The position numbers were made by a program, and so were the translations under genes. Below the pieces are notes generated by a model, which did no database searches, had not been told where the DNA came from, and saw only the letters and a list, made by a program, of their open reading frames with translations. A DNA stretch of 61,091 bases from a virus. Shown in pieces: positions 34,384 to 56,237 of the stretch; within the stretch, counting starts at the first letter, position 1, and each line of letters opens with the position of its first letter. Location of the stretch: IMG/VR virus record IMGVR_UViG_3300043470_000556, positions 1 to 61,091 of that record. One strand, written 5' to 3'.

Positions 34384-34780
34384 CAGAACCGTAGTGGAAC
34401 TCGGTCCACCTTCTTACTAGAACGGTTGATAGTTTTATTCTGTTTCGAGGAAAAACTATCAAAAACCCAATGCTAGCTTAAGCAGCTAGGGCAAAGGCAA
34501 CGTTATCGTTTGCATTTACTTTTTGTGGGCGCTTTACCCAGTCAATCAGTCTACTCTCGCCTTCAACTCGCAGTCGAATCCTAAGTACGCCCCCATCATA
34601 GATACTCTGGCTAGAGAGTACCTGCGATTCCAAACTCTGCCTATTCTATTGCCCGGATTTCAGCAATAGTAATCGAAACTTTTATTAGCCGGTGTGTATT
34701 CGGCCCAGAGTATCTATGGTGGAGGCGAGGGGAGTTGCACCCCTGTCCTACGCAGCATTCAGATTGTATCAACAACTGAT
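34384..34780 (-). ncRNA. ssrA: Permuted (two-piece) tmRNA
   Basis: The acceptor piece comes first on the minus strand and ends at CCA (34719-34717), preceded by a T-arm AGGGGTGCAACTCCCCT. The coding piece starts at 34594 with GGGGGCG. GGGGGCG (34594-34588) pairs with CGCCTCC (34727-34721) over 7 bp, including a G3-U70 pair, the alanine identity element. Downstream GGATTCGAC is the D-loop-like segment. The tag frame (34513-34478) reads ANDNVAFALAA then TAA. The spacer between pieces is bounded by a perfect 12-bp inverted repeat (34599-34610 and 34705-34716). Helices TTGATAGTTTT/AAAACTATCAA and others follow the tag. The exact ends are estimated. Permuted tmRNA is typical of alphaproteobacteria. 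Confidence 0.93.
34599..34716 (-). other. Excised spacer of permuted tmRNA
   Basis: The segment between the acceptor CCA and the 5' end of the coding piece. Its ends are the 12-bp inverted repeat TAGATACTCTGG/CCAGAGTATCTA, which would form the processing stem holding both pieces in place. Confidence 0.75.
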
Positions 34781-34786
34781 ATTCTA

Positions 34787-34815
34787 TTTATACTATACAT
34801 GACGTAGGAAGTCAA
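34787..34815 (-). promoter_or_regulatory. tmRNA promoter TTGACT-N17-TATAAA
   Basis: The -35 TTGACT is at 34810-34815 and the -10 TATAAA at 34787-34792, 17 bp apart. The -10 extends to TATAAATA (34785-34792), so both the host-type and the late phage machinery might use it. RNA would begin near 34780. Confidence 0.7.
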
Positions 34816-34820
34816 GTCTT

Positions 34821-37442: not shown

Positions 37443-37964
37443 CTATTTATTAAAATGCGTTGAAAAAACTAGATGAAGTCTGTTGGCAGAAATTGAAGCA
37501 TTTATCGCAGTATGTTTGACATTTGTTTGTAAACTATACAATCTACCAATATCTGGCATTCGTTCTACCATGTCATCTACAACAAAGAATGCATCGGCAT
37601 CAGTGATCAACGGTATGTGATACCGAATAGAATCAGGGTCAACATGGTAACTCAAGCATGTTATCGGCGTCATGTTCATAAATCTAATTCGATCTATCGT
37701 CAGGTTACCATTAGAATAGTTGTATATTTGATTCTCTAATTTTTTGATCAACGGGAAAATATGCTGCGTATAATCCTGTCTTTTGAGAGTATTCTGATCG
37801 CGCAGACTACCTGCTCCAAGTTGAAGTTTTTCTTCAAAACTTAGCGCCTCGTCACCTTCTCTATATTTGAGATTGTGTTGTTTCATTGCTGGTAATTCTG
37901 ACCATAGTTTAATATATGGCGCAGGATCTATAGTAAATTCTAATTCTTTAATATACCTTGACAT
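37443..37964 (-). CDS. Asp/Asn beta-hydroxylase-like 2OG-Fe(II) dioxygenase
   Basis: 173 residues from ATG 37964, chosen because GAGGGAC lies just upstream; the longer start at 38003 is deep in the carbamoyltransferase gene. Motif YHVDPDSIRYHIPL gives His107, Asp109 and Arg114; a distal His151 in VKHTAINAS and Arg162 in NRLHLVF complete the double-stranded beta-helix pattern of aspartyl/asparaginyl hydroxylases. Substrate unknown. It overlaps the carbamoyltransferase by 17 nt, so the two are co-translated and may modify the same target. Confidence 0.72.
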   Translation of the reverse strand: MSRYIKELEFTIDPAPYIKLWSELPAMKQHNLKYREGDEALSFEEKLQLGAGSLRDQNTLKRQDYTQHIFPLIKKLENQIYNYSNGNLTIDRIRFMNMTPITCLSYHVDPDSIRYHIPLITDADAFFVVDDMVERMPDIGRLYSLQTNVKHTAINASISANRLHLVFSTHFNK

Positions 37965-39372
37965 TATAAAGTCCCTCGAACATCTTAGCGTCCTTGGTAT
38001 CATTTACCATAGGAAACCCTTTGATGTTAAGACTAGTATTAAGCAACATTGGGCAACCTGTTTCTTCATACCAGCGTGACAACAATTCAAATAATCCTGG
38101 ATGCTGCTCTTTGTTTACAGTTTGGACGCGAGATGTGCCATCAACGTGAACGATAGCAGGGAACTCTGTAGGAAATTTACATCTTGCAGTAAACTGCATG
38201 TAAGGGGATACTTCAACTGGCATGTCAAAATACTCTGCTGCATATTGCTCAAGGATGACTGGTGCGAATGGTCTAAACTTTTGTCTGCGCTTGATTGCAT
38301 TTACTTTGTCCTTAATGTCTGGTCTAGATGGATCAGCGAGGAGACTTCGGTTACCAAATGCCCTCGGACCAAACTCTGCTCTTCCACTAGCAACTCCAAC
38401 TATACCCTCTTTACGCAAAGAAGTCAATAGATTTTCTACGGGATATTCGGTTTCAATATTCTCACCGAGATATGGACCTTGCCAGTTTAGTTTTCTGCGG
38501 TTGTTTGCAGCAATAGCACCAAGAGAACTACCAGCATCTCCTGGGTTAGGAATAATCCAGATATTTTTGAAGTATTTTTTAGCGATGTGATTTGCCGAGC
38601 AGTTAAGTGCGCAACCCCCTGATAACACTAGATTATTTTGTGCTGGATCATTCTTCTTTGCGCGATGTAGAAGTTTATCAAATTCTTCTTCATATATCTT
38701 TTGCGCCGATGCGGCAAGATCGTAGTGATCAGGATCTTCTTTTTTCATCCACCACTTACAACCACGATGTAGATTTACTCGCTCATAGAGTTCGCGCATA
38801 TCCCAATAGTGCTTGTCAGGATTACCATATGCCGCCATACCCATGAGGATATATTCATCTTCGTTTGGTTTCAACCCAACTCTGTCTGTTATAGCAGAAT
38901 AAAATAATCCAAGAGATTTCGGATAATCCATACTCCATTGTTTCTTCATAACATGTGCGTAACATGTCCAGATAGATGCCGTATCAAACTCACCGATAGC
39001 ATCAATTACTAGAGTGGTTGCTGATTGAAATGGAGAGGTATAGAAACCTGCTGCGGCATGCGACTCATGATGTGAAGCAAATTCGACTGGAACTTCGAGA
39101 CCGAATTCTTTTAGATACTGCCTTACGCTAAAGCGAATAATTCCTTGCCCCGAAAGTAGTCTGCGCATACCTCTGAGTTTTGGTTTTTCATACCAATGAA
39201 TCTTTTCTGGTTTACCAAACTCTAATGCCGCATTGATCAGATCGGCATTTAGATGCTTGTCATTTTTGATTCCGCTATACCGTTCTGCGTGCGAAGCAAA
39301 TAAAATTCGTTCACCCTGCACCACAGTAAGAGCAGCATCATGCGCTGCAGCAGATATACCCCATTCAATCAT
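37948..39372 (-). CDS. NodU/CmcH (TobZ-type) carbamoyltransferase
   Basis: 474 residues from ATG 39372, which overlaps the preceding radical-SAM stop as ATGA. N-terminal Kae1-like domain: WGISAAAHDAALTVV, FASHHESHAAAGFYTSP and YILMGMAAYG, LSGGCALNC. C-terminal YrdC-like domain: GRAEFGPRAFGNRSLLADP and FAPVIL. The family moves a carbamoyl group from carbamoyl phosphate through carbamoyl-AMP to a hydroxyl. Phage members have been linked to carbamoylation of 5-hydroxymethylcytosine (from memory). A TET/JBP enzyme at 60589 could supply that hydroxyl; alternatively it serves the radical-SAM cassette. Confidence 0.9.
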   Translation of the reverse strand: MIEWGISAAAHDAALTVVQGERILFASHAERYSGIKNDKHLNADLINAALEFGKPEKIHWYEKPKLRGMRRLLSGQGIIRFSVRQYLKEFGLEVPVEFASHHESHAAAGFYTSPFQSATTLVIDAIGEFDTASIWTCYAHVMKKQWSMDYPKSLGLFYSAITDRVGLKPNEDEYILMGMAAYGNPDKHYWDMRELYERVNLHRGCKWWMKKEDPDHYDLAASAQKIYEEEFDKLLHRAKKNDPAQNNLVLSGGCALNCSANHIAKKYFKNIWIIPNPGDAGSSLGAIAANNRRKLNWQGPYLGENIETEYPVENLLTSLRKEGIVGVASGRAEFGPRAFGNRSLLADPSRPDIKDKVNAIKRRQKFRPFAPVILEQYAAEYFDMPVEVSPYMQFTARCKFPTEFPAIVHVDGTSRVQTVNKEQHPGLFELLSRWYEETGCPMLLNTSLNIKGFPMVNDTKDAKMFEGLYNVKVY

Positions 39373-40703
39373 TTGTATAACCACTCCAGTTCTGGAAATG
39401 TTTCTTTGAAGTTCGTGCCGCGAGCAATATCCATTTTCGAATATTCTTCCATGAATATTAAGTAATCTTCTGTAGGATACTCAAAAAATTTAAAATCAGA
39501 CTGCTGCATCTTTCGCATATTTCTAATTTTACTCATTGCAGTTTTAATTTTTTTCTTCTTGTTAGATAACGCAGGAGTGCCATTCACAACACAAGACAAA
39601 TACCAATCTTCAAATTCAGTCAAACAATTATCAACATATTGCCAATGCTGCTCTGGCATATTAACAATACTTAAATGTGTTGGGTTGCGAAGAAGATTTT
39701 GAAACATGTATGATTCAAACAAAGTGGTATTACATAAACTTGTTTGGTAAATTCCACAATCAATAAATTCTTGCACAATTTCTTTCAACCGATGTATATT
39801 GAACGCACTCAGAACAGGAACATATACTAATTTTTGTTTTGCCCATCCGACAGATCTATTTACTATTTCGAATGAATCGTGTATTTTTTTAAGATTCTCT
39901 GAGATTTTGTTCCAATCTCCAGGCCAGCGAATATAATTAAATCGCTCACCGACTTCGTCGATACTCGCCATGATCATTACGCTTTTGAATTGTTTCCAAT
40001 ATTCTAAAACATCTTTACCACGATATGTTAGAGTGCTGCAATTAGTAGAATATACTAGAGTAACTTGATTTGCTCTACCGCATTCTATAAGTTTTTCTAG
40101 TGTATACCAATGGTATTTTGATATCATCGGTTCCCCACCTGCAAAATAGATATCTCTAACGCTATCCAAATTGTCATCAATAAGTTTAAATGCAATAGAG
40201 TCATCTTTTGGTTCTATAAACTTTGATTCCGTTTGAGGTCTGCCCAATTTTTCATTTAGATCATACCACTTAGAACTCAACCCATGTCCGCACGTAATAC
40301 ATGCTTGGTTGCATCTATTACTGAATCTGAAATCCATGTACTTTAATTTGTCTGTTGTCATTTCACCAGATGGTAGGAGATGCGAAATATAATGATCATA
40401 CTCATCCGCATAAACATTGTTTCTATGCGTCCTAGAACTTTCTGAAGCAAATTTTTCAGTATCATAACACCCAGAACAAATGGGATTTTCTACGCCATCT
40501 ATCATATTTTTTCTGAATTGCTTGTACTCTTCTCCATTCCAGATCTCATTCCATGAAGAAACTTTGTTTATGTTTCCTAGTGGTTTCTGTAGTGTATCGC
40601 CCACACAACATGGCATAACGTTACCATCTGGTGAAACGTATGTATGCAATAATCCCAACATACAAAATGAAGGATTTTTTTTGAGATTGTATTCTCTAGT
40701 CAT
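39369..40703 (-). CDS. Twitch-domain radical SAM enzyme A
   Basis: 444 residues. Cluster-binding CxxxCxxC is Cys131, Cys135, Cys138 (NRCNQACITCG). An N-terminal twitch/half-SPASM region carries Cys14, Cys32/33, Cys76 and Cys79, placed before rather than after the barrel. FAGGEPMISKYHW (GGEP motif) and ASIDEVGERFNYIRWPG follow. The C-terminal end is KETFPELEWL, shared with two other enzymes here. Probably modifies a peptide, sugar or base by a radical route; substrate unknown. It overlaps its neighbours at both ends. Confidence 0.88.
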   Translation of the reverse strand: MTREYNLKKNPSFCMLGLLHTYVSPDGNVMPCCVGDTLQKPLGNINKVSSWNEIWNGEEYKQFRKNMIDGVENPICSGCYDTEKFASESSRTHRNNVYADEYDHYISHLLPSGEMTTDKLKYMDFRFSNRCNQACITCGHGLSSKWYDLNEKLGRPQTESKFIEPKDDSIAFKLIDDNLDSVRDIYFAGGEPMISKYHWYTLEKLIECGRANQVTLVYSTNCSTLTYRGKDVLEYWKQFKSVMIMASIDEVGERFNYIRWPGDWNKISENLKKIHDSFEIVNRSVGWAKQKLVYVPVLSAFNIHRLKEIVQEFIDCGIYQTSLCNTTLFESYMFQNLLRNPTHLSIVNMPEQHWQYVDNCLTEFEDWYLSCVVNGTPALSNKKKKIKTAMSKIRNMRKMQQSDFKFFEYPTEDYLIFMEEYSKMDIARGTNFKETFPELEWLYK

Positions 40704-40794
40704 AGATGAACGGATCTAATTCCTGCAATTTTTTAATTTTTCTTTTGATTTTTCTATCTAGGAAAAACTGTCGTATAATAGCAATCAATTTCAT
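40696..40794 (-). CDS. Hidden small basic protein, 32 aa
   Basis: ATG 40794 overlaps the SGNH-hydrolase stop (TAATG) and the TAG at 40696 overlaps the start of radical SAM A. The product MKLIAIIRQFFLDRKIKRKI... ends KKLQELDPFIYD. The double coupling and the strong codon logic argue for a real gene. Basic amphipathic helix; possibly a membrane- or partner-binding peptide. It also deserves thought as a radical-SAM substrate, without direct evidence. Confidence 0.6.
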   Translation of the reverse strand: MKLIAIIRQFFLDRKIKRKIKKLQELDPFIYD

Positions 40795-41588
40795 TATAGT
40801 ACACCTTTCGAAACTAATTCATCGTAGATTTTATCTGCGTAGATAATATGACTTTGCAGTTTTGGATGAGACCAAGTATGAGGTTCTAACTTATGTTCTT
40901 CCCGTATATTCTGAAATGCAAAGTCTGGAAGAAGTAAATTATCGAACTCGAAAGAATCTAACCATGGAAGTTTCTTCTTATATCCAGAGAAAAAGTTTTT
41001 CCATCCATCCAAAGAATGCACAGTCATTGTCAAGAACATTCTACCATTGAAATATTTCGTTGCCATGTCATCAAGGTGTTTTAAGTCTCGTATATACTGA
41101 TAAATTAAATTGACATCATTCACATAATCTACCATTAATGCATCATAAAGTTTGGGATCCCCCCAAGTTTCTCTAAAATTAAACACTTGGTTTACTTCAC
41201 TTACATTCTCTGTCAAATAGAAAAACCTATTGGGAGATGTGATTCCGACCAGAATCAAATCGGTTTCTTTTATACTTCCTTCGTGCATATCTCTTTGGAT
41301 TCTAAACATAACATTTGAGATATTAGAACCATTTACAGCTCTATTCGAACAGGGTATATTTACTTTTTTTGCTAGTTGACTCGGCCATGCAAGAGTTTTA
41401 CCATATGCTTCTGCTTCTCTTGCCAAACCACCATATACTTTTTGATACGCTTTATCACCCAACCCATGTTCTGCTTTCAATCGATCAACTTCATCGTGGG
41501 TTTTACCCAAAATCTCTGCATCACCAAGTTCTTGTCCCGCAGTAAAACTGCATCCATATGCAATTATTTTGTTAAAATTGGATACCAT
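40794..41588 (-). CDS. SGNH/GDSL-type hydrolase-like protein
   Basis: 264 residues. Block I is IAYGCSFTAGQE with a probable nucleophile Ser; SNRAVNGSNISNVMFR and LILVGITSPNRFF resemble blocks II and III; the C-terminal WSHPKLQSHIIYADKI holds a likely catalytic His. Such esterases remove or add acyl groups. It overlaps radical SAM B by 25 nt and the 32-aa ORF by one, so it belongs to the cassette. Confidence 0.72.
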   Translation of the reverse strand: MVSNFNKIIAYGCSFTAGQELGDAEILGKTHDEVDRLKAEHGLGDKAYQKVYGGLAREAEAYGKTLAWPSQLAKKVNIPCSNRAVNGSNISNVMFRIQRDMHEGSIKETDLILVGITSPNRFFYLTENVSEVNQVFNFRETWGDPKLYDALMVDYVNDVNLIYQYIRDLKHLDDMATKYFNGRMFLTMTVHSLDGWKNFFSGYKKKLPWLDSFEFDNLLLPDFAFQNIREEHKLEPHTWSHPKLQSHIIYADKIYDELVSKGVL

Positions 41589-42718
41589 TCTGCAAAACTT
41601 TCTTTAAAATAATTATTCCTATACTTATCATGCTTCTCTGTAATAGATAGCATCAAATTAAATTCATCCGGATTGTGCACAGAAGTATTTAACATGTTTG
41701 TTATGTTAGTCAGTTTATCTGAGTAATCTAACAACCGCTTAGATACTAGTGGTTTTAAATCTTCGGGAATATTAGTAATACTAAATTGTGTTGGGTGAAA
41801 CAACATATTATAATAAATTCCGATATTCGGATAATGTTCTCTAACAAACATATCAAACTCCACAACATCCCAAATATTATATATGCTAACAGTATAACAA
41901 AAATCTATTCGAATATGATCATTTTGCTTAGACAAGTTGGAATACTTCTCAATAACATCCAGTGCAGTATTCCACTTTCCAGGATATCTCATGTATTCAA
42001 ATTTCTCGCCGATCCCATCTATGGAAAGAGAGATATTTACTTTTTTGAAATTCTTGAGAGCAGTTTCCTGCTTGCTATTCAGATACATTGTTGCGTTAGT
42101 GTTAAAATGGATTTCTTGATCAGTAGAATAACCATCAAGAACACACTTATCGAGAATTTCCCAAGATCTTTCTACTAGTAATGGTTCGCCACCATAAAAA
42201 TCAATAACACTACATTGTGGAATCCATTCTTCCAATGTATTCCAAAAATCTGTATTCTCGGCAGAATAGATTTGGCGTATGTTTTTAAATTTTTGCATAA
42301 ACGCATTTTTAGGTACATGCGAATTGTTTACATCATACCACTCTGTCACCCAAGAACTGCTTATTTCTGGATTGCATGTTCGACACTTTAGATTACAAGT
42401 ATTTCCTAATTTCAAATCTAAAATTTGTGGAGTTTCTTTAATCTGCAGAGTTCTAGTGTTTTCTCGTTCTCGTTTACTTTCTCTACCATGGTGTTCTTCA
42501 GACCAACAAACTTCACAAGTTGAATTTTCAATACCATTTTCTAGATCTTGTAATAGTTTTTTTCTGGCGTCAGAATTCCAGATTTCAGTTAATGTATTTG
42601 TAGATAGATTATATTCCTTGCCTGTGTCATCTGCAAATGGTTTTGCCAGACAACAAGGTCTAACTCTACCAACAGTATCAACTTCTAATCCGCAAGATGC
42701 ATGCAGGCAGGTTTTCAT
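41564..42718 (-). CDS. Twitch-domain radical SAM enzyme B
   Basis: 384 residues from ATG 42718 (MKTCLHASCG), which overlaps the preceding stop as ATGA; the upstream ATG at 42733 is less likely. Radical-SAM Cys108, Cys112, Cys115 (NTCNLKCRTCN). N-terminal cluster residues Cys4/Cys9, Cys22/23, Cys68, Cys71. FYGGEPLLVERSW is the GGEP motif and LSIDGIGEKFEYMRYPGKW a conserved strand. Close relative of enzymes A and C. Confidence 0.88.
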   Translation of the reverse strand: MKTCLHASCGLEVDTVGRVRPCCLAKPFADDTGKEYNLSTNTLTEIWNSDARKKLLQDLENGIENSTCEVCWSEEHHGRESKRERENTRTLQIKETPQILDLKLGNTCNLKCRTCNPEISSSWVTEWYDVNNSHVPKNAFMQKFKNIRQIYSAENTDFWNTLEEWIPQCSVIDFYGGEPLLVERSWEILDKCVLDGYSTDQEIHFNTNATMYLNSKQETALKNFKKVNISLSIDGIGEKFEYMRYPGKWNTALDVIEKYSNLSKQNDHIRIDFCYTVSIYNIWDVVEFDMFVREHYPNIGIYYNMLFHPTQFSITNIPEDLKPLVSKRLLDYSDKLTNITNMLNTSVHNPDEFNLMLSITEKHDKYRNNYFKESFAEWYPILTK

Positions 42719-43917
42719 ATTTGCTTTGCCCACGGATGAGTTTCAAATACGTCTTGGTTTCTAATCTTGTCTAACAACAGTTGCTTTTGAACAAACTTCT
42801 TTTGTAGATCCGAATTATGCAAGTTAGACTTGTTGCTTTCCAGATAGTTAATGGTATTATTAATTTCTACTACATTAATTTTTATCTGTGGTTTGATATT
42901 TTTGAATTCTTGTAGATAGTACTCATAGATTTCTTCTGGCATAACATCTGCTTGTAGAAAATCAGGTCTATTAACAGGAATTACGCCCATAGAAAGTCCA
43001 AGATCTTCGCACCAAAGAAATAGATCACGAAGAGAATTATTGGATATTGTTAAATTCTGTAATGTTGGAGTAACTCCGCATTCTATATTTCTAAGATCTT
43101 TAATTTCTGCCATCAACAATTTCATATTTGATTCAATAGTTTCCCATTTCGCGGGATTACGAATATACTCATATTGCTTACCAACACCATCGATGCTAAC
43201 ATTAAGTTGAACAAATCTGAATTTTTTCCACATATCAATGAACTTTTTGCCAAGAAAAATACCATTTGTATTATATACCAATTTAATCTTGGATGCAGAT
43301 CCAGTTTCTAACAAATAGGTAAGCAGTTCTTCGTGGGCATCAATAATAAGAGGTTCTCCACCAATCATATAGATTTCCTGTAGTGTGTCAAGATGCGGAG
43401 AAACAACATCACGCATACTCACAGCATCAACCCACTCAGTGCTGTCATAATCCATTTCGTAATACGATCTAGATTCAGGGTGCTTTTGTGTTTCTTTACC
43501 AATCAGAGAACTACTGAATGGTGCACACATTCTACATCTCAGGTTACACTTTTTACCAAGGTCAAATTCAATTCTGTGAATGCCCAAAGGAGTCTCATCA
43601 TGGATCCTCTCGCGCAACTCTGGATATCTCTGATTAATAGATTCCCTAAAACTCTTCATACCAGAGTCTTCCATTTTCCAACAACGACCGCACATTGGAT
43701 GACGTTCGCCCACCAACATAGATTCACGCAATTCTTTGTGAGTATGTGTGTTTAGAAAACTGTCGAGGGTGTAATCTTTCATTTCAGTTATATTTGCTCG
43801 AACACCCTTCTCGCTCTCAATATCAGCATGCAGTGCATTACAACAGGGTCGTAACCCTCCATTAGATCCTACGCTCAGTAGAATCCATGGATACACACAA
43901 ACTGTATTATTTTGCAT
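42715..43917 (-). CDS. Twitch-domain radical SAM enzyme C
   Basis: 400 residues. Cys124, Cys128, Cys131 (KKCNLRCRMCAP) bind the SAM cluster; Cys7, Cys25/26, Cys76, Cys79 form the N-terminal twitch. IGGEPLIIDAH is the GGEP motif and VSIDGVGKQYEYIRNPAKW the repeated strand. Its stop overlaps the start of B, and its start lies within the end of D, showing tight coupling. Substrate unknown. Confidence 0.88.
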   Translation of the reverse strand: MQNNTVCVYPWILLSVGSNGGLRPCCNALHADIESEKGVRANITEMKDYTLDSFLNTHTHKELRESMLVGERHPMCGRCWKMEDSGMKSFRESINQRYPELRERIHDETPLGIHRIEFDLGKKCNLRCRMCAPFSSSLIGKETQKHPESRSYYEMDYDSTEWVDAVSMRDVVSPHLDTLQEIYMIGGEPLIIDAHEELLTYLLETGSASKIKLVYNTNGIFLGKKFIDMWKKFRFVQLNVSIDGVGKQYEYIRNPAKWETIESNMKLLMAEIKDLRNIECGVTPTLQNLTISNNSLRDLFLWCEDLGLSMGVIPVNRPDFLQADVMPEEIYEYYLQEFKNIKPQIKINVVEINNTINYLESNKSNLHNSDLQKKFVQKQLLLDKIRNQDVFETHPWAKQI

Positions 43918-45196
43918 TAGATTTTTCCCGTTGTTCGTGTTCTTGCTGTTTTACCAACCCTCTGCTTGTTGTTCCAAGTTCGCCTTGGTCTAAGTGATTG
44001 TATTCATCACCACAACATGCAGTGCATTGGTGACTTCTCATCGAACTTCCCTTTTGGAAACTCAATGGGAGAAATCTTTGATACAATGGAGAACTTACAA
44101 TATCCTGAATAGAATTTTTCTTCAACGATATCGAATCCATACCACCGTTTAGTTCTATCATCTGCAAAGATGTGTCATTGGGATTCCAATGTTCTGAATT
44201 CGCTCTCCACAATTCACCACCAAGGAAACAGCAAGGATAAACATTACCTGCGCCGTCAACAAAAATTTCGTTCAGTTGTTGATACTTCGATTTCTTTGCG
44301 CGACAAACAATTCCCAAAGAATTGTGTGGAATAGAAATAGATGTGTTGTTTTCGTTGTCATAGACATCTATGTCTGTTTTTCCAGGTTTGGGTATCATTC
44401 TATTAAATTCATCATTAGTAATATACTGAGGAATTATACCGAACGATCTTTTAAATTCAACAGAATTCTCATGTTGATATATTGGGTTTCTTGGTTGCCG
44501 TAATGTATGGGTTTTTACTCCATTGTCCATAACGTCATACAGTCCGCGACCTTCATCGTCATACCGATGCCAGCGAGTTGTCTTTTTAATATTAAAATAT
44601 TGGAAACCTAGATCTTTTGCGATTTGTTTCGCTTGCTCGACCTGATGCTCATTGTGTTCAAATACAATATAATCCCACTTAGCAATACCACCTGCAGCAG
44701 TATATGCCTTCATGTTTTCATGGATTTTTTCAAAACTGGTATTTCTGCGGTATAAATGATTCGTATCCCATAGACCATCAACTGAAAAGATAACATAATC
44801 TTGTCTGGTACCATCTGGTCCGCCATTCATGATTTTCGCTAGTTCTTCCCACCATGACTTTGGTCTTGCACTACCATTGGTATGAATTACTAATCCTACC
44901 TTATCATTACATTCGCGAATATATTTGTAGATTTCTAACGTGTCTCTCGCGGCAAGAGGATCCCCATAGTTACCACAGGCATAAACTCTGCGCATTTGTT
45001 GCAGAAATTCTTTTGGAAACCAACTTTTAAATTGATCCAATGTAATTTCTGTCATAGGCAATCGTGGATTAATCTCGGATCCATTTTTAATATGCCTTGG
45101 ACACATAGGACATGCTGCATTACATCGAGTTGTTAACTCTAAATGCATCCCATTTAAATCGCGATACGACTCGTATAGCGGTTCAATTTGCATCAT
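43907..45196 (-). CDS. SPASM-type radical SAM enzyme D
   Basis: 429 residues. The barrel starts at once with Cys25, Cys29, Cys32 (TTRCNAACPMCPRH). The SPASM/twitch-like Cys set is at the C-terminus (IVCRAKK, VYPCCFLGG, HQCTACCGDE), the usual order, unlike the other five enzymes. CGNYGDPLAARDTLEIYKYI replaces the GGEP motif. This looks like the most conventional maturase of the group. Start and stop overlap the neighbours. Confidence 0.87.
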   Translation of the reverse strand: MMQIEPLYESYRDLNGMHLELTTRCNAACPMCPRHIKNGSEINPRLPMTEITLDQFKSWFPKEFLQQMRRVYACGNYGDPLAARDTLEIYKYIRECNDKVGLVIHTNGSARPKSWWEELAKIMNGGPDGTRQDYVIFSVDGLWDTNHLYRRNTSFEKIHENMKAYTAAGGIAKWDYIVFEHNEHQVEQAKQIAKDLGFQYFNIKKTTRWHRYDDEGRGLYDVMDNGVKTHTLRQPRNPIYQHENSVEFKRSFGIIPQYITNDEFNRMIPKPGKTDIDVYDNENNTSISIPHNSLGIVCRAKKSKYQQLNEIFVDGAGNVYPCCFLGGELWRANSEHWNPNDTSLQMIELNGGMDSISLKKNSIQDIVSSPLYQRFLPLSFQKGSSMRSHQCTACCGDEYNHLDQGELGTTSRGLVKQQEHEQREKSNAK

Positions 45197-46595
45197 TAAT
45201 TTCCTTACACATGTAATAGAAGTCTTTATATTCAGGAAACAGTTCTAGAAGACCCAATCCAACAGATCTCTTATCGTATTCAGTAAAGAATTTGTAAAAA
45301 TCCTTTCTTCCGTTCTCGATTAACTTCTCATCAATTCGCGGACCACCCTGATAAAAGTAATTACGAACACGCTTGAGTTTTTCGTATTCTTGCTCTTGGA
45401 ATCCATGGACCAATCCTGGTTCGGCAATATTATTTTGAATGTATTGAAGATCAGAATCAATATACCGACCAAATTCTTCTTTCGGTAGAAGATTGATCAT
45501 CCAGTGTGGTGGTTCCTTGAGATAAGGAGTATCAAACATAATACGATTTTGGTATGGGTTGACGTTCCACTTCTTGCGCAGTTCCAGAATTTTCTCTAGG
45601 AACGGACGGAAAGATGCAACACAAAGAATATTATATGTGCACATAATGCTAATTGAAACATCAGGAACTGTCTCAAGAAACGTCTCAACATTCTTCAACC
45701 AAAGATCCTGATTTAAACCACGACGCATATACTCTGCTTGTGGACCCCATGCTTCCAACGAGGTATACATCTTAAAGTCTTTGATTTTTTTCTTATCAAG
45801 AAGATTCTTCACAGAGTCAGAAAGACGCTGCACTCGATTATTGCTTACACCCATATTACTGTTGATGTTCAATTCTAGGTGCTGCGTGTCATCACCTGAT
45901 TCAATTTCCTTAAACAACTTCATTGTGTTGGGATTGATCAATGCTTCACCGCCTGTTAGACGAAGAACACGGAGATCTTTCTTTAGATCAGGCCACCATT
46001 TCCAGAATGCATCAACATAGGGATTGTCTTCGTCATCTTTATATACCTTCGTAGTCTTAAGATAATCGATACCATACTGATTGTAACTAATGTCATAGTT
46101 ACCATGATCACGAATTTCTTGTTCCCAAAGAGATGATGCTTGAGGGCAACAGTAACCGCACTTAAAGTTGCAACCATTGCCAAAACTTACTTCTAAGAAA
46201 TATGGATTATAATCCTGATCCCACGGGAGACTTTTAACCATCTCAGTTTCTGTCTTGGCATCAATCCAAGTACTGGCATTGTGGAACATTCGATCGCTGA
46301 AGTTTTCTCCAGGAAGGTTTTCTACGTTCCAACAGTAATAACATTCTTCCGGACGTCCGCCCTCGAGCATGATCTTGCGCTGCTGTTTCTTCCATTTTGT
46401 GTTATGTAGTGCAGAAGGATTCTCTGCAATTTCTTCCAATGGAATGCGTTGTGGGCGAGGATGATAGCAACTGTGGTTGTCGCCCATGTGCAAATACAAT
46501 GTTTCATGGCGCCATTTCTGCAAACAGAATCCATTCCCAACTGTATTGAGAGTGTCCCGAACTTCGCGGACTTTGTCGAGATAACTATTGCTCAT
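45183..46595 (-). CDS. Twitch-domain radical SAM enzyme E
   Basis: 470 residues from ATG 46595 (MSNSYLDKVR), 11 nt inside the preceding gene; 46610 is an alternative. Cys142, Cys146, Cys149 (NGCNFKCGYCCP) plus N-terminal Cys24, Cys43, Cys85, Cys88. LTGGEALINPNTMKLF is the GGEP-like motif. It shares FCLxKW, HSCYHP, ENPxxLHNT and GCSYCW-type blocks with enzyme F, so E and F are paralogues. Confidence 0.87.
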   Translation of the reverse strand: MSNSYLDKVREVRDTLNTVGNGFCLQKWRHETLYLHMGDNHSCYHPRPQRIPLEEIAENPSALHNTKWKKQQRKIMLEGGRPEECYYCWNVENLPGENFSDRMFHNASTWIDAKTETEMVKSLPWDQDYNPYFLEVSFGNGCNFKCGYCCPQASSLWEQEIRDHGNYDISYNQYGIDYLKTTKVYKDDEDNPYVDAFWKWWPDLKKDLRVLRLTGGEALINPNTMKLFKEIESGDDTQHLELNINSNMGVSNNRVQRLSDSVKNLLDKKKIKDFKMYTSLEAWGPQAEYMRRGLNQDLWLKNVETFLETVPDVSISIMCTYNILCVASFRPFLEKILELRKKWNVNPYQNRIMFDTPYLKEPPHWMINLLPKEEFGRYIDSDLQYIQNNIAEPGLVHGFQEQEYEKLKRVRNYFYQGGPRIDEKLIENGRKDFYKFFTEYDKRSVGLGLLELFPEYKDFYYMCKEINDAN

Positions 46596-48234
46596 TTTTG
46601 CATCTTTCATAAAAATTAATTAATTCGGGGAAGGTTTCTTTGAAATTTGTATTTCTTCGCCTATCCAACTCGTCAACATATTGAGCAAATCGAATCATAC
46701 TAGTATTTAGTCGACTCTGCTCCATTCCTTGTCGCATTATATCTAGGTCTCGTCTAACTTTGTCGATTTCATACTGCTTAAATCCACGGAAACTGGTGGA
46801 GTAATCATCTCCTTGGATATTTTTTTCCATAAACTCCACGCTACTTTCCATCATAGCAATCATCTCAGAATCCGCCATCTTTATACTCAACCAACTTGGA
46901 GTATGGAGAATGGGTATATCAAACCAAATTCTTTGACTGCGAGGTTTAACTATAGGTTTCTGCCCAGGAACATCAAAGACAATATCATTTTGTTTGTCGT
47001 ATGCGAATTCTTCGCGTAAGTCAAGAATCCATTCTAGGAATTTTTGTAACTTTGGGATACTCAGAAGATTGAATGTATTAATGATTGTAATATTAGTGCA
47101 GTTCGTCTCTCTCAAAAATGTTCTAACGTTCGAATCTAAGATATCAAAATTCATCCCAGTTCGAATATACTCAGCTTGCGGACCTACGCTATCACAACTT
47201 ACAAACAATGAAAAGTGCTTCATCACAGGAGCAGTACATTCAAACTCATAAGAAAATCCGCCATCTTCTTTACTTTTTCCGGATTCTGTTAGTTCGGGAA
47301 TGTTTTCTGGTTCTATTGATGGTAACTCGCTATGGTAAAGACGCTTATTCTTATCACCAATGATATAGTGTTGCCACTCTTTCCACTCAGTCCCATTTTT
47401 AGGATCGGGAACAAAACATTTTACCGTATGGTGTGCTGTTTCCATTTTCTTTACTTGAGTCAGAAACTTGTCAAACAATTCTTGCTTAGGTGGACACAAA
47501 TTGCTGGTAATACTCAATTCAAGATCTGGATTGGGGTGATGATAAACGTAATCCAATACTTTAAATGTATTGTTATCCATTAGAGGTTCGCCACCAGTCA
47601 TTCTAAAAATCTTTAGCGTTTTATATAATTCAGGCCACCATTTCCAGAATGCTTCTACGTATGGATTTTCTTTCTGCGAAACTTTCTTTGGCATCAATCC
47701 ATAGTCAGTTAATGCACCAAGATGATTATGTGCTGCATCCTTCAGAATATATGCACCATATTTTTCTGCTTCTTCTTGCCAAGAGGTACTAAGATGCGGG
47801 GAACAATATACACATTTAAAATTGCACGCCTGATTGAAATTTACTTCAACATACGCTGGTGTGATTGTTTTGTCTAGGGATTTATTAGTTGCAATTTTTT
47901 CAAAGTCGGGTGAATTCCACCACTCACTGCTACGATAGTGTCGATCACTCGTGTGACCTGCATCTTCGATACGCCAACAATACGAACATCCATCAGGACG
48001 TTCGCCTTTACGCATTTTAGCACGTTCTTCAATTTTCTGTGGGGTATTGTGGAGCAATCCTGGATTTTCCGACAATCCCTCTAGAGGAATATCGTGCGTC
48101 GGCGGATGATAGCAACTATGCGTCTTACCATTAGTAAGATGCATACTCACCATATTCCATTTTGCCAAACAGAATGTAGAACTTACTGTTTCAAGTTTCT
48201 GCTTGGTTTCTTCTGCCGAGTCTCTATAATCCAT
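46585..48234 (-). CDS. Twitch-domain radical SAM enzyme F
   Basis: 549 residues. Cys137, Cys141, Cys144 (QACNFKCVYCSP) and N-terminal Cys22, Cys41, Cys83, Cys86. RMTGGEPLMDNNTFKVLDYV follows. Compared with E there is an insert of roughly 70 residues in the barrel (around KRLYHSELPSIEPENIPE). It ends FKETFPELINFY, like A and E. First rSAM gene of the cassette; its ATG overlaps the stop of the methyltransferase-like gene. Confidence 0.87.
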   Translation of the reverse strand: MDYRDSAEETKQKLETVSSTFCLAKWNMVSMHLTNGKTHSCYHPPTHDIPLEGLSENPGLLHNTPQKIEERAKMRKGERPDGCSYCWRIEDAGHTSDRHYRSSEWWNSPDFEKIATNKSLDKTITPAYVEVNFNQACNFKCVYCSPHLSTSWQEEAEKYGAYILKDAAHNHLGALTDYGLMPKKVSQKENPYVEAFWKWWPELYKTLKIFRMTGGEPLMDNNTFKVLDYVYHHPNPDLELSITSNLCPPKQELFDKFLTQVKKMETAHHTVKCFVPDPKNGTEWKEWQHYIIGDKNKRLYHSELPSIEPENIPELTESGKSKEDGGFSYEFECTAPVMKHFSLFVSCDSVGPQAEYIRTGMNFDILDSNVRTFLRETNCTNITIINTFNLLSIPKLQKFLEWILDLREEFAYDKQNDIVFDVPGQKPIVKPRSQRIWFDIPILHTPSWLSIKMADSEMIAMMESSVEFMEKNIQGDDYSTSFRGFKQYEIDKVRRDLDIMRQGMEQSRLNTSMIRFAQYVDELDRRRNTNFKETFPELINFYERCKNEQ

Positions 48235-48815
48235 TATTTAAAACCAACTGCCATGTATCTATAGAAATGCCCACACTTCAACATACCAGCGTATTCTGGG
48301 GTTTTAATCCTGTTGATTGTTAAGAATTCTTCTAGACTATCGGCAATGCGGACATGCTCAGGATTTTCTAGATTATTTCCTTGGACGATATATTTAGTCG
48401 TACTAGGAATAGAGTCCCACCAAGCATCATATACTTCTTGCGTAACATGTTCGCTACTTGTATTGATCACCAGATCGGGATGCACGTTGATCGGCATACC
48501 GTTTTTCATGTCATGTTGACGGAAGACAATATCATGATAACACTCATCGATAGCAGTGAATACATGCCTACAACTAGAATCTAAGTCAGTGGTTAGAATT
48601 CGTGCATCAGGAAACTTGTGTGCAATAAACTGCGCAAGGATTCCATACCATCCACCGAAAATTACGATAGATCGATCCATAGGAGTTACATGTTCGAGTA
48701 ACCACTTCTTACTTTCGATCTGACTTGGCCAGAAGTTCTCGGAGAATCTGTATGCATTCTCTGGATTATTCCGGATGTATTCCATCCAATTTAATACAAC
48801 ATCAAAATTAACCAC
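48234..48815 (-). CDS. SAM-dependent methyltransferase-like protein
   Basis: 193 residues. IVIFGGWYGILAQFIAHKFP gives a Gly-rich motif I and ARILTTDLDSSC a motif II with an acidic residue, as in class I methyltransferases; DLVINTSSEHV is the motif IV position. The canonical GxGxG is altered (GGWYG), so activity is uncertain. It opens the radical-SAM cassette, its stop touching enzyme F's start and its own start overlapping the gene before. Confidence 0.65.
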   Translation of the reverse strand: MVNFDVVLNWMEYIRNNPENAYRFSENFWPSQIESKKWLLEHVTPMDRSIVIFGGWYGILAQFIAHKFPDARILTTDLDSSCRHVFTAIDECYHDIVFRQHDMKNGMPINVHPDLVINTSSEHVTQEVYDAWWDSIPSTTKYIVQGNNLENPEHVRIADSLEEFLTINRIKTPEYAGMLKCGHFYRYMAVGFK

Positions 48816-49209
48816 GGCGCATCCTCGCTACTTCAATTGCTTGTTCTTCGTTGATGATAGGAACCGCATTTGATTTATGCATGGTCGCGATACCTTTAAT
48901 CAACGTTCCAGTATATGTATTCTCCTTGCGAGCAAAGGTTACGCCGAGTCCGTCGCCTGAAGGATACTTCTGACGATGGTCGCTGACTTCATACTTGGGG
49001 AGAGGTGTGCCACGCAACTTGGGTTTATAATTGCCTTGGCGATATTGCACATACTCGTCGAAGGTCTTAGTCTTACAACCAATCCGTTTCATCTGCTTGT
49101 TGTACTCAACCCAGTCCTGGGAATACTTCGCAGTTACGCCTTTGTTTGTGGTCTTGCGCTTCTTCGTATTAGTGGTGGTGTACGCATGAGACATCAGGTG
49201 CATAGTCAT
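48808..49209 (-). CDS. Conserved phage protein, 133 aa
   Basis: Starts MTMHLMSHAYTTTNTKKRKT, basic N-terminus, and ends YTGTLIKGIATMHKSNAVPI then a helix ending ARMRRG. I recall similar proteins in many marine T4-like phages, without known function. AGGA is 8 nt before the ATG and a consensus promoter (49240-49268) lies upstream, so it is probably an early gene heading the leftward cassette. Confidence 0.65.
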   Translation of the reverse strand: MTMHLMSHAYTTTNTKKRKTTNKGVTAKYSQDWVEYNKQMKRIGCKTKTFDEYVQYRQGNYKPKLRGTPLPKYEVSDHRQKYPSGDGLGVTFARKENTYTGTLIKGIATMHKSNAVPIINEEQAIEVARMRRG

Positions 49210-49928: not shown

Positions 49929-50089
49929 GCACATCAATTCACCAACAAGAACTAGATACGCATTTCGACAAGATCGAGAGCGAAATGACACAACAGGAAG
50001 TAACAGAAACTCCTATTGTGTTTTTCCGATTCGGCGAGGATAATCCACTTCTTACTTGGTCAGGGCTCTATAAACCCCGTCAAAGTTAG
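49925..50089 (+). CDS. Small protein, 54 aa, overlapping cyclase gene end
   Basis: ATG 49925 to TAG 50089 gives MSTSIHQQELDTHFDKIESE... ending WSGLYKPRQS. It is coupled by ATGA to the gene before and overlaps the 3' end of the oppositely directed cyclase gene by 38 bp. The hydrophobic/aromatic tail suggests a small fold. Unknown function. Confidence 0.55.
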   Translation: MSTSIHQQELDTHFDKIESEMTQQEVTETPIVFFRFGEDNPLLTWSGLYKPRQS

Positions 50090-52103
50090 CAGGAGGTTCG
50101 CCCTCCATGCGCTCGAGCATCATATCATAGTAATTATTTAACTCTCCACGCCAGCAGTCTTTAAGATCGCTGGCGTATTTTTTAGCAACTTCCCATTTAC
50201 CTTGGCGATAAAGTTCGATGAATTTCTTATGCTGTAACTCTGATGCTGCTTCAAAGAATGGCAGAACTGTATAGATTGAAACTGGTTTTGTTTTGCCTTT
50301 AACAGCAATCAAGTCAAGTTCGACTACTTGGTATACATCCCCCACCGATTCGGCCGTTTGTGGTCCGACGACGAGTTTGACGCCATAAGGTTTGGATTGA
50401 CCTTCGAGACGAGCAGCCAGATTAACGCCGTCACCCAGACAAGTATAATCGAAACGCTGATCGCTGCCCATATTGCCAACAACCACAGTGGCAGTGTTAA
50501 TACCAAGACCCATACCGAAAGCGGGAATGCCTTCTTCTTTAATGTCTTCATTGAAAATCTCCAAGTCTTTTAGCATCTGAAAGGAAGTTCGAACTGCGTC
50601 CAGTGCATGTTGCTTATTATCCAACGGTGCATTCCAGAATGCCATCTGCGCATCACCGATATACTTATCAAGTGTACCGTTGTTTTCGAGAATCGCCCTT
50701 GTCATAACTGTCATGTAACGATTCATAATCTTTGTTAGACCTTGAACGTCATCGCCGTAGTGCTCAGAAATCGTAGTGAATCCACGAACGTCTGTAAACA
50801 TGATCGACAGTTCTCTAGAGTCACCACCAAGTTGTAGTAGTTCTGGTTGACGCTGTAGTTGTGCAACAAGATCTGGCGACAGGTACGTACCGAACTGCTT
50901 CTTAATTTGTTGCTTCTGTAGATACTCGCTAATGAACTTGGCAGTGTAGAGATGAATGTAGATTAGAGCAATCGCGAGTACGTTAAATGTAACATCAAGC
51001 AAAATACCCTGTTGCGCAAACAGGTATACTGGTAAATAGAAATATCCGCCCAACAGAACTGCGATAAATATAATCGAGAATCTGAATCGAGAAAGAATGA
51101 TCAATGCCAGCGCAAGACCCAGAAAAGCAGCAAGATCCGCAATTGCTGACCAGTTCGGTATCGCAACCGAATCCCCATTTATCAGAGTTTCAAGAATACT
51201 CGCCTGAAGGACGTGGGGATGTTGCTCACCTTGTGGAGTCGCTACAGGGTTCGCTATACCAGCAGCAGTTACGCCAACAATCACAATTTTCCCGTCAAGA
51301 CGAGGAATATCACCACCTACTTCAACAGATGGAAATACGTAATTGGGGTTGATGAACACCCGACTATATTCATCTGTTTTAATTGTTTCAAAAGAAGGAA
51401 TTCGTAATGCTTCGACCCCAGTCTGATTTATCTTGGCTTGATATGAAGAGTCTCCTGCAGCTACACGCAGCATCTCTAGAGCAAATGCGGGATAGTATTC
51501 GCCTGATGTTTGAGATAGAAGAGGAACTCGCCTTACAACCCCATCACTCTCGGGTAGGGTTGACGTTATCCCAACACCGACTGCGGCTTCTTGAAGAATT
51601 GAGATATTACTTAGAACGCACGGGTATTGAGGAAGAAATTCAGTTGCTTCTCCATCGCCGATTACGGCAACGCCTGTCCTCCGAATTGTCGCACTTGCCC
51701 GAGAACAAGAATCGCTTACCGTCTGACTCAAAACCACTGGATACTGATTTAGGGTATCCGCAAGAACTCGATCAGTCCCCATCCGATCAGACTCAGGCAT
51801 AAGTATAGTGCTACCAACAACAGCAGCCCCTCGACTATAAAGGTCGTTAATAATTTTAGCATGGACTTCCCTCGGGAAAGGCCACTGACCATATTTCTCA
51901 ATTGCTTTCTCCCCAATATTGACTGTTACAATTTGCTCGGATTGCGTCGGCGAACCGAGCATCAAATAATCATAAAACTTCAATCTCGTGGATTCAACCA
52001 TGTATGGATCAGATAGTTTTACCCAAAGAAGAATACTAAAAGTAAGTAGTGCCAACCAAGGCGAGAGTAAAACTTTTTTAGTTCTTTGTGTAAGAGTATC
52101 CAT
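50052..52103 (-). CDS. CHASE2 sensor-adenylate cyclase (class III)
   Basis: 683 residues. TM helix at ~11-29; a CHASE2-type extracytoplasmic domain ~30-315 (QWPFPREVHAKIINDL is characteristic); three more TM helices at ~320-388; catalytic domain ~425-600. Metal Asp438 (FTDVRGF) and Asp484 (IGDAQMAFW), adenine-specifying Lys480 and Asp552 (FDYTCLGDGVN), and transition-state Asn561 and Arg565 are all present, so an active adenylate rather than guanylate cyclase is expected. It is the last gene of the curli-like operon and overlaps the curlin-like gene before it. Full membrane cyclases are unusual in phages. The ligand is unknown; FecR protein nearby is a likely partner. Confidence 0.9.
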   Translation of the reverse strand: MDTLTQRTKKVLLSPWLALLTFSILLWVKLSDPYMVESTRLKFYDYLMLGSPTQSEQIVTVNIGEKAIEKYGQWPFPREVHAKIINDLYSRGAAVVGSTILMPESDRMGTDRVLADTLNQYPVVLSQTVSDSCSRASATIRRTGVAVIGDGEATEFLPQYPCVLSNISILQEAAVGVGITSTLPESDGVVRRVPLLSQTSGEYYPAFALEMLRVAAGDSSYQAKINQTGVEALRIPSFETIKTDEYSRVFINPNYVFPSVEVGGDIPRLDGKIVIVGVTAAGIANPVATPQGEQHPHVLQASILETLINGDSVAIPNWSAIADLAAFLGLALALIILSRFRFSIIFIAVLLGGYFYLPVYLFAQQGILLDVTFNVLAIALIYIHLYTAKFISEYLQKQQIKKQFGTYLSPDLVAQLQRQPELLQLGGDSRELSIMFTDVRGFTTISEHYGDDVQGLTKIMNRYMTVMTRAILENNGTLDKYIGDAQMAFWNAPLDNKQHALDAVRTSFQMLKDLEIFNEDIKEEGIPAFGMGLGINTATVVVGNMGSDQRFDYTCLGDGVNLAARLEGQSKPYGVKLVVGPQTAESVGDVYQVVELDLIAVKGKTKPVSIYTVLPFFEAASELQHKKFIELYRQGKWEVAKKYASDLKDCWRGELNNYYDMMLERMEGEPPANFDGVYRALTK

Positions 52104-53532
52104 TACATGGTCCAGTCGTGCATGTTATTTCCATTTTCGCAGAGTCGGCAGCAGTCAAGTTATTTTGTGTGACAGTTACACCAATTCCAGGACTATTTAG
52201 TAAAAGTTGAAATTGCTTTGCAGACGCACCTAATTGAGTCACCGATGCAGTAACTCCGCCGAATGGTGCATCAATTTGTAAAAAGTGATTACCTGCACCC
52301 TGTTGTAAGGTGCTGATATTATTAGAGTTTCCTAAAGCATTGATAAACAACGATTTTCCGTTAGCATCTTTTTGTTGTGCAGTTATTTGATTGCTTAGAC
52401 CATTGGTCACAATCTCGGCGTATTTACCATTATATTGTTGTGTCAACGATACTATATTGTTATTACCAGTTACTGATACTTCTGCTAAGTTCTTACCGAT
52501 TGGTGTTGTTGCTGTGCCTTGATTGATAGTAATGCTGTTGCCGCTACCATTGATTGTCATAGCTGGTGCGCCATTGACACCACGAATCTGGTTCTGCTTA
52601 GAAAACTGTTCAATATAAACTGAGTTGTTAGACCCAGTTGCATTAATGTATATTGAGTTTTGTGTAATTGCGTTTGTTTGATTAATCTTTAGCGATTGGT
52701 TAGCACTAATCGATGCCAGTGGATAAGTTGGTTCTGGTGGTGTTGGCGCAGGAGGTGGTGGAGCAGAAGAACCAGCATTTGGTTGAACTGGAGTAAACGT
52801 TGTTCCGTTTAAAGAGGTTGTTCCTTGCATCTGATCGATAAACAGAATTGGTGACAATGCGGTATCTCCAAGATTGAACGAAGCAAATCCTAATAGATAA
52901 TTTCCGTCAGCAGGAACGGTGAACACGGCAACTTGCCAACCAGTGGCACCATATGAATTTGTCGAATAGTTACCAGTTCCAGGATTAGTAAATCCGAGAA
53001 GAGCAAAGTTTTGAGTTTGCCCATTGATTGTTGGAGTGCCATTGCCACCAGTAACAGTGATCATCGATCCGTCATTGTATGGAACATAGTCAGTAGATAG
53101 ATACTGCCAAGCATAAGTGTAAGTCACACCTGCTTGGAGAAATACTGTTCTACTAATAGAAGTTGCGTTTGTGGGATACATGTTGCCATTAGAGTAAATG
53201 GTATTCTTGATTGATGTAATCACAGAACTTTGTAGTCCCAGCGTCGTCATGGCACTATCAAAACCAGGAGAACCTCCTCCTGCTTGTAGTGACACCATGT
53301 AAGAACCATATGGAGTAACTGTCCAGCACTTACCTCCACCTGGACAATAGTTAGTCATACCAGTTGTAACTTGAACACCCGAACCATCTGGACCCCATGT
53401 GGTTCTTGCTGTAGTCGAACCATTACTGACAGTCCATCCAGCATAGTCGCCATTCTCGAAACCGTAGTTTGTAACTTGCGCAAATGTTGGCATTGCAAAG
53501 AACAGTAGAAAGAGAGCAATTAGTCTTTTCAT
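52078..53532 (-). CDS. Secreted two-domain protein with curlin-like repeats
   Basis: 484 residues. Signal peptide MKRLIALFLLFFAMPTFAQ. Residues ~20-245 form a beta-sandwich-like region (YGFENGDYAGWTVSNGS), similar to carbohydrate-binding or adhesin domains. A Pro-rich linker (SSAPPPPAPTPPEPTYP) is followed by C-terminal curlin-type repeats with recurring GxxN and alternating hydrophobic residues (TGSNNSVYIEQF, TGNNNIVSLTQQ, LGNSNNISTLQQ). This fits a CsgG-exported adhesin with amyloid-like tail. Two Cys near the C-terminus (TCTTGPCNG) could form a disulphide. It overlaps both neighbours by a few bases. Confidence 0.72.
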   Translation of the reverse strand: MKRLIALFLLFFAMPTFAQVTNYGFENGDYAGWTVSNGSTTARTTWGPDGSGVQVTTGMTNYCPGGGKCWTVTPYGSYMVSLQAGGGSPGFDSAMTTLGLQSSVITSIKNTIYSNGNMYPTNATSISRTVFLQAGVTYTYAWQYLSTDYVPYNDGSMITVTGGNGTPTINGQTQNFALLGFTNPGTGNYSTNSYGATGWQVAVFTVPADGNYLLGFASFNLGDTALSPILFIDQMQGTTSLNGTTFTPVQPNAGSSAPPPPAPTPPEPTYPLASISANQSLKINQTNAITQNSIYINATGSNNSVYIEQFSKQNQIRGVNGAPAMTINGSGNSITINQGTATTPIGKNLAEVSVTGNNNIVSLTQQYNGKYAEIVTNGLSNQITAQQKDANGKSLFINALGNSNNISTLQQGAGNHFLQIDAPFGGVTASVTQLGASAKQFQLLLNSPGIGVTVTQNNLTAADSAKMEITCTTGPCNGYSYTKN

Positions 53533-56227: not shown

Positions 56228-56237
56228 GGTCATCTCC

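Follow-up and report, generated by a model that had tools for sequence, protein, structure and literature searches.

A radical-SAM-rich gene cassette of T4-like phages, with a counterpart in Bdellovibrionota, that may build or edit an unusual glycan

Results

Ten tightly packed genes form a radical-SAM cassette in a T4-like phage fragment

The window, that is, the whole stretch of 61,091 nt analysed here, is a 61-kb linear IMG/VR fragment, and the contig is incomplete. It encodes T4-like baseplate, single-strand-binding, gp59, PhoH and tail proteins (PhoH being assigned from sequence), and judged by its genes it comes from a T4-like phage that has the methylophage Melnitz and the pelagiphage HTVC008M among its relatives. 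The cultured Melnitz and, in part, HTVC008M match the window in the permuted tmRNA, the PhoH/nuclease neighbourhood and an operon of CHASE2 cyclase, curlin, FecR, CsgG and CsgF. On the minus strand at 37443-48815, the ORF check recovered ten ORFs, all at the coordinates of the original prediction, which are listed below in the direction of transcription, preceded by their upstream neighbour.

48808-49209, minus strand: small conserved protein upstream of the cassette, phrog_27048; 72-94% identity in close relatives
48234-48815, minus strand: methyltransferase-like protein ('INTSxEH' family), the first gene of the cassette; 71-93% identity in the closest relatives having it
46585-48234, minus strand: rS1B, twitch radical-SAM enzyme (rSAM), long type T1; NF033640 304 bits
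45183-46610, minus strand: rS2C, twitch rSAM, long type T1 paralogue; NF033640 284 bits
43907-45196, minus strand: rS3D, SPASM rSAM with a C-terminal SPASM domain; PF04055 and PF13186
42715-43917, minus strand: rS4, twitch rSAM, short type A; NF033640 312 bits
41564-42733, minus strand: rS5, twitch rSAM, short type A; NF033640 288 bits
40794-41588, minus strand: SGNH/GDSL-like protein; N-terminal GCSFTAG motif
39369-40703, minus strand: rS6, twitch rSAM, short type B1; NF033640 328 bits
37948-39384, minus strand: NodU/TobZ-family carbamoyltransferase, the last conserved gene; PF02543, PF16861 and phrog_1601
37443-38003, minus strand: PF05118 Asp/Asn hydroxylase-like protein, accessory; PF05118 29.6 bits

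Counted from the listed starts and including the junction with the upstream ORF, 9/10 junctions overlap by 1-56 nt, in keeping with the near-universal overlap that had been predicted, and the sole non-overlapping junction is a 90-nt gap at 40704-40793. The upstream phrog_27048 protein does not clearly belong to the pathway. The cassette lies between the PhoH-side genes and the curli operon, and tail fibres do not adjoin it.

Several other features were observed in the window. Besides CsgG, CsgF and FecR, the curli operon (50052-56687, minus strand) encodes a CHASE2-adenylate/guanylate cyclase and two proteins with weak matches to curlin repeats; Melnitz has the same set, and HTVC008M has CsgF, CsgG, a curlin-associated protein and the cyclase in a matching layout. 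The curli module of Melnitz has been described as incomplete (PMC9004378). A permuted two-piece tmRNA at 34387-34819 (minus strand) carries the tag ANDNVAFALAA (ARAGORN) and scores 89 bits to Rfam tmRNA_permuted, and the protein encoded at 58624-59742 (minus strand) matches part of Druantia DruA (PF14236, 47 bits). At 59780-61089 (minus strand), TAGT, a TET-associated glycosyltransferase (PF20691), adjoins a TET/JBP oxygenase whose gene is cut off by the end of the contig.

Five enzymes belong to the N_Twi_rSAM family and the sixth is a SPASM enzyme

The rSAM enzymes were assigned using the NCBIfam model NF033640 ('N_Twi_rSAM'), which has a curated whole-protein cut-off of 170 bits. Five cassette proteins scored 284-328 bits; rS3D scored 44 bits and so falls outside this family, and it carries a Radical_SAM domain together with a SPASM domain (PF13186, 27.1 bits vs a Pfam cut-off of 21.5). 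These results confirmed the predicted set of six rSAMs, five with an N-terminal twitch and one with SPASM. The paralogy predicted for two of them was likewise borne out, rS1B and rS2C being 40% identical over 250 aa (E 1e-57). Two size classes of twitch rSAM were distinguished, long (types T1 and T2) and short (types A, B1 and B2), and among 161 non-redundant twitch sequences the CxxxCxxC motif, the four twitch cysteines and a GGEP motif are near-invariant, with C7, C26, C76, C79 and C124/C128/C131 conserved at 99-100%.

rSAM enzymes are costly and oxygen-sensitive. The dN/dS of cassette genes against the relative L012 was 0.03-0.25 where estimable, several synonymous distances being saturated. 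Since the catalytic residues are near-invariant and dN/dS is in this range, the cassette does not appear decayed, and sequence conservation indicates that its enzymes are intact, under purifying selection and the result of neither chance nor decay.

All other NCBIfam models, including those of housekeeping and tRNA-modification rSAMs, scored far below their cut-offs, so that the match to a known housekeeping function such as tRNA modification, which would have refuted the original reading, was not observed. Profile and fold searches revealed no close solved relative of the twitch rSAMs. The AlphaFold2 model of rS4 (pLDDT 82) gave SkfB as its best fold match, and the nearest folds of the rSAMs comprised the peptide maturases SkfB, SuiB and anSME and the sugar/nucleoside enzymes BlsE and SpeY, at query-normalised TM-scores of 0.2-0.4.

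Viral relatives keep the order of the array and carry different centres

One scan with rS1B detected at least 496 viral-contig relatives. By tblastn, rS1B and rS2C had zero matches among 50,697 phage records, and the matches of rS4, to some Vibrio phages and to one single-cell marine virus, were weak. The best 80 of the 496 relatives, plus two loci from a second scan, were collapsed into 58 non-redundant loci carrying 1-9 twitch rSAMs each. At least two were present in 48/58, and the genes are therefore linked in relatives rather than single and scattered. This linkage, together with the lack of a match to a housekeeping model, supports the original reading of a multi-rSAM biosynthetic cassette rather than ordinary phage metabolism.

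The array order T1 > T2 > B/A was conserved, with a concordance of 0.86, where shuffled orders averaged 0.57 and reached at most 0.64, a value to which shared ancestry contributes and for which loci were picked through T1. Because ~90% of the gaps within related islands are ≤10 nt, the island is consistent with a single transcript. Comparison of individual loci located the variation in the centre. Three relatives (L014, L015 and L028) keep the ends, with the methyltransferase-like protein at 71-93% and the carbamoyltransferase at 87-93% identity, and have a different centre (T1 T2 B2 A ...), the members of which are mostly 26-39% identical to the nearest window rSAM, with rS1B at ~60%. A fourth, L012, shares the array of the window at 65-92% identity, its SGNH gene being only ~40% identical. 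Such central exchange resembles that of serotype loci, the ends being conserved and the rSAM set differing, and would fit a locus that exchanges the structure of its product, as suggested by the comparison of these few loci.

On a 235-kb island-bearing viral contig (L139; G009:C1:60-80 kb), SufB/SufD-like and class-V aminotransferase genes were found, which are likely a phage-encoded SUF Fe-S assembly system. A general provision of Fe-S assembly machinery by these phages themselves was not supported, as SufBD exceeded the cut-off in 1/21 contigs and A-type carriers were found in 3/21.

The remaining cassette proteins are conserved to different degrees

The predicted carbamoyltransferase was verified, PF02543 and PF16861 both exceeding the Pfam cut-off beside a match to phrog_1601, and its PDB relatives are the novobiocin, GdmN and TobZ carbamoyltransferases. 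Sugars or natural products are the substrates of most known members of the NodU/TobZ family. This gene was present in 18/58 loci. Uncharacterised proteins of 330-370 aa with a 'MYPEGYxLYxNGxW'-like motif recur beside the carbamoyltransferase (L084:17211-19282, L082:18177-19166 and L070:15733-18273); one was tested against PHROG and had no match.

Three other predicted functions held in part. The SGNH hydrolase (40794-41588) retains the GCSFTAG motif but had zero Pfam or PHROG matches; SGNH-motif proteins occur in 17/58 loci, and in relatives this protein is 32-40% identical, compared with mostly 59-92% for the products of its neighbour genes. The methyltransferase-like protein is a member of a conserved family, but its methyltransferase assignment is weak by Pfam and NCBIfam. 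The beta-hydroxylase (37443-38003) matches PF05118, a family whose enzymes can hydroxylate Asp/Asn, but lies outside the conserved module: no homologue was found among the 58 related loci, which rules out a fixed place in the cassette and makes it an accessory gene.

Sugar-type genes accompany the islands of many relatives

By Pfam, the window cassette contains neither a glycosyltransferase nor a nucleotide-sugar enzyme, and such enzymes are present in many relatives and in Bdellovibrionota. In 34/52 loci, a gene of the 'SYDEPN' family lies ≤3 genes upstream of the array. The DxD of this family is invariant, and nearly all of the nearest PDB folds of its model (pLDDT 89) are glycosyltransferases, the match being weak (best E 3.5e-4, TM-scores ~0.3) and the top one being SunS, a peptide glycosyltransferase; SYDEPN is therefore predicted from the model to be a GT-A glycosyltransferase. 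It is not on the contigs of the window's two closest long relatives. Since the cassette also lacks sugar enzymes, the sugar in the window's clade may come from the host or another locus.

Two GT8-like genes precede the array in 33/46 loci, the GT8 label resting on sequence appearance and PMC7029224 rather than Pfam, and tail-fibre or virion-structural genes lie upstream in 28/46. Among the other genes of the islands in relatives are those for UDP-sugar dehydrogenases, GDP-mannose dehydratase/epimerases, NeuB, mannose-P isomerase, cytidylyltransferases/nucleotidyltransferases and methyltransferases. A control set of 73 proteins drawn from the same long contigs included NeuB (1/73 proteins), and its 25 listed families contained neither UDP-sugar dehydrogenases nor epimerases, so that any enrichment of sugar genes in islands would be modest.

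Bdellovibrionota chromosomes carry the same family and partners

Bdellovibrionota were surveyed with the NF033640 model, as a 21-sequence alignment was too diverse and a narrower one gave five loci. NF033640 exceeded its cut-off in 94/291 genomes, which rules out a phage-only system: the cassette predicted as a phage one does occur in phages, but its family is not phage-specific. One Bdellovibrionia MAG (L101 and L102; G022:C1:745-775 kb) has 20 twitch matches, ~13 of them in 30 kb on a 917-kb contig. The window's methyltransferase family was found in 28/291 genomes and the SYDEPN family in 18/291, and all of these (28/28 and 18/18) also carry twitch rSAMs (hypergeometric P 8e-16 and 4e-10, respectively, both of which genome size may inflate); ~12 of the 18 genomes with SYDEPN have a twitch rSAM no more than ~10 kb from it. 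SPASM rSAMs of the rS3D type, 27-36% identical to rS3D, share clusters with twitch rSAMs. Family-2 glycosyltransferases make up 10/68 of the cluster neighbours, which also include GDSL, PF05118, DegT, epimerase and acyltransferase domains; in one cluster, the twitch rSAMs adjoin a NodU-type carbamoyltransferase. N_Twi clusters can also adjoin an ATP-grasp-like ORF and B12-rSAMs.

In one Bdellovibrionia cluster (L093 and L092), a twitch rSAM and an rS3D-type SPASM rSAM are joined with HMGL-like, LeuC/LeuD-like and MmgE/PrpD enzymes, which suggests an amino-acid-type natural product. An archaeal home was rejected: the contigs of the 'Pacearchaeota' MAG NZDU01 (L090, L106 and L107) carry T4-like phage genes, e.g. 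a clamp loader, and the twitch-rSAM contigs in this bin are probably misbinned phage.

Discussion

A glycan or glycoconjugate is the favoured product

Among the products originally considered, a modified peptide, a surface glycan or a nucleotide, the glycan is favoured: the search for a precursor peptide found none, and modification of DNA is a poor fit. We consider it on balance probable that the cassette is one operon whose enzymes form a modular pathway for making or editing an unusual glycan or glycoconjugate. This product would most likely be displayed on the surface of the infected cell and possibly on the host-recognition fibres of the virion. This reading is preferred because it explains most of the partners, the swapped centre and the placement of related cassettes in a host-recognition region (PMC7029224).

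We infer the substrate, the order of the reactions and the biological role of the cassette as follows. Glycosyltransferases would lay down the sugars, the predicted GT-A enzyme sitting just upstream of the array in relatives; each twitch or SPASM rSAM would then catalyse a single radical reaction on a sugar, such as oxidation, epimerisation, deoxygenation or C-C bond formation; and the methyltransferase-like, SGNH and carbamoyltransferase proteins would cap hydroxyl groups. Acting on the surface glycan of the infected cell, the cassette could block competing phages, and exchange of the middle between phages with the same flanks might alter the product structure, as in O-antigen loci. Against this reading stand the lack of a glycosyltransferase in the window cassette, the mixed fold neighbours, the one amino-acid-type Bdellovibrionota cluster and the presence of the carbamoyltransferase in only 18/58 loci.

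A protein or ribosomal peptide, e.g. a tail fibre or a secreted peptide, could instead be cross-linked, epimerised or hydroxylated by the rSAMs and receive groups from the other enzymes, which we regard as rather unlikely. Many SPASM/twitch rSAMs are peptide maturases, as is the top fold match of rS4; PF05118 enzymes can act on Asp/Asn, arrays often follow tail-fibre-type genes (28/46 loci), and the top fold of SYDEPN is a peptide glycosyltransferase. However, the overlapping junctions and the short gaps of the islands, 90% of which are ≤10 nt, leave a precursor gene no space, and the proposed search for candidate precursor peptides yielded none in the cassette: no precursor ORF lies beside the maturases among the adjoining ORFs, the intergenic space of the cassette being ≤90 nt, and any precursor would be encoded at a remote site. 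By Pfam, no cassette protein contains an RRE/PqqD recognition domain, and transporter and peptidase domains are likewise absent. Moreover, the hydroxylase is unconserved, and a peptide product would leave the nucleotide-sugar enzymes of many islands unexplained.

Synthesis of a diffusible small molecule, such as a modified amino acid, a nucleotide or an antibiotic-like sugar compound, seems to us improbable. The LeuC/D- and HMGL-like enzymes, ATP-grasp-like ORF and B12-rSAMs adjoining N_Twi clusters in Bdellovibrionota point in this direction, and BtrN and SpeY, two of the twitch rSAMs that make aminoglycosides, are distant matches here; yet the window cassette lacks an exporter or resistance gene by Pfam, and amino-acid-building genes are missing from the phage versions.

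Hypermodification of phage DNA, in which the carbamoyltransferase would cap a hydroxymethyl base and the rSAMs would modify bases further, is highly improbable and was rejected as a general role: the window does end in a TET/JBP-TAGT pair and a TobZ-family carbamoyltransferase acts on 5hmC in DNA (PMC8670742), but only 3/20 island-bearing contigs tested have TET/JBP and these three belong to the window's clade, the thymidylate-synthase/dCMP-hydroxymethylase family is missing in 16/21 island-bearing contigs other than the window, including some of 175-235 kb, a C5-methylase was found in 0/20, the carbamoyltransferase accompanies the island in contigs without TET/JBP, and bacterial chromosomes have the same rSAM partners. 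Because the window's clade has TET/JBP and a C5 DNA methylase was not detected, phages of that clade may contain a modified base, either derived from thymine (base-J-like) or of another kind.

Relation to known systems

rSAM cassettes and T4-like phages with many rSAM genes are already published. The host-recognition region of pelagimyophages was described with rSAM gene cassettes and GT8 enzymes (PMC7029224); as here, these are T4-like aquatic phages in which a hypervariable region has cassettes that vary between relatives, with glycosyltransferases near. The passages concerned mention the cassettes without analysis of their enzymes, order or product, and the cassettes sit in the host-recognition cluster, whereas that of the window lies between the PhoH-side genes and the curli operon. 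The T4-like environmental genome TARA_ERS488813_N000010 has 12 rSAM genes, treated as Fe-S proteins (PMC5332604); it is likened to the window by description rather than by identity, as one T4-like marine phage with many rSAM genes, and the passage on it describes no pathway, order or partner genes.

NF033640, to which 5/6 cassette rSAMs belong, carries no stated function; the present analysis links the family to an array with a set order, to partners that recur and to two taxonomic groups of carriers. O-antigen/LPS and serotype-conversion loci likewise have conserved flanks, an exchanged centre and, as in the window's relatives, sugar-nucleotide and decorating enzymes, but the window cassette is dominated by rSAMs and has no polymerase, flippase or glycosyltransferase. 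The 5hmC carbamoyltransferase systems (eLife 2021, PMC8670742) also place a TobZ/NodU-family enzyme in phage, whereas the window's relatives mostly lack a dCMP-hydroxymethylase-type partner and the carbamoyltransferase is embedded in an rSAM array. In the openly accessible literature that was searched, there was no account of the ordered array, the exchanged centre, the GT-A, methyltransferase-like and SPASM partners or the Bdellovibrionota counterpart; the ordered array, exchanged centre and bacterial counterpart thus appear to be new.

We tentatively propose, as a possibility rather than the expected outcome, an undescribed class of pathway in which ordered twitch rSAMs, a SPASM rSAM, a GT-A enzyme and an INTSxEH protein would produce a radical-edited surface glycan, common to T4-like aquatic phages and Bdellovibrionota and with its rSAM set swapped in a serotype-like manner. 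With the conserved order, swapped centres and a counterpart on bacterial chromosomes, what had been isolated 'radical SAM' annotations become a single system open to testing, for which Bdellovibrionota members may permit a genetic approach. If the product is indeed a surface glycan, aquatic phages would remodel host surfaces by radical chemistry, and these loci would be a large source of carbohydrate-active rSAM enzymes yet to be characterised.
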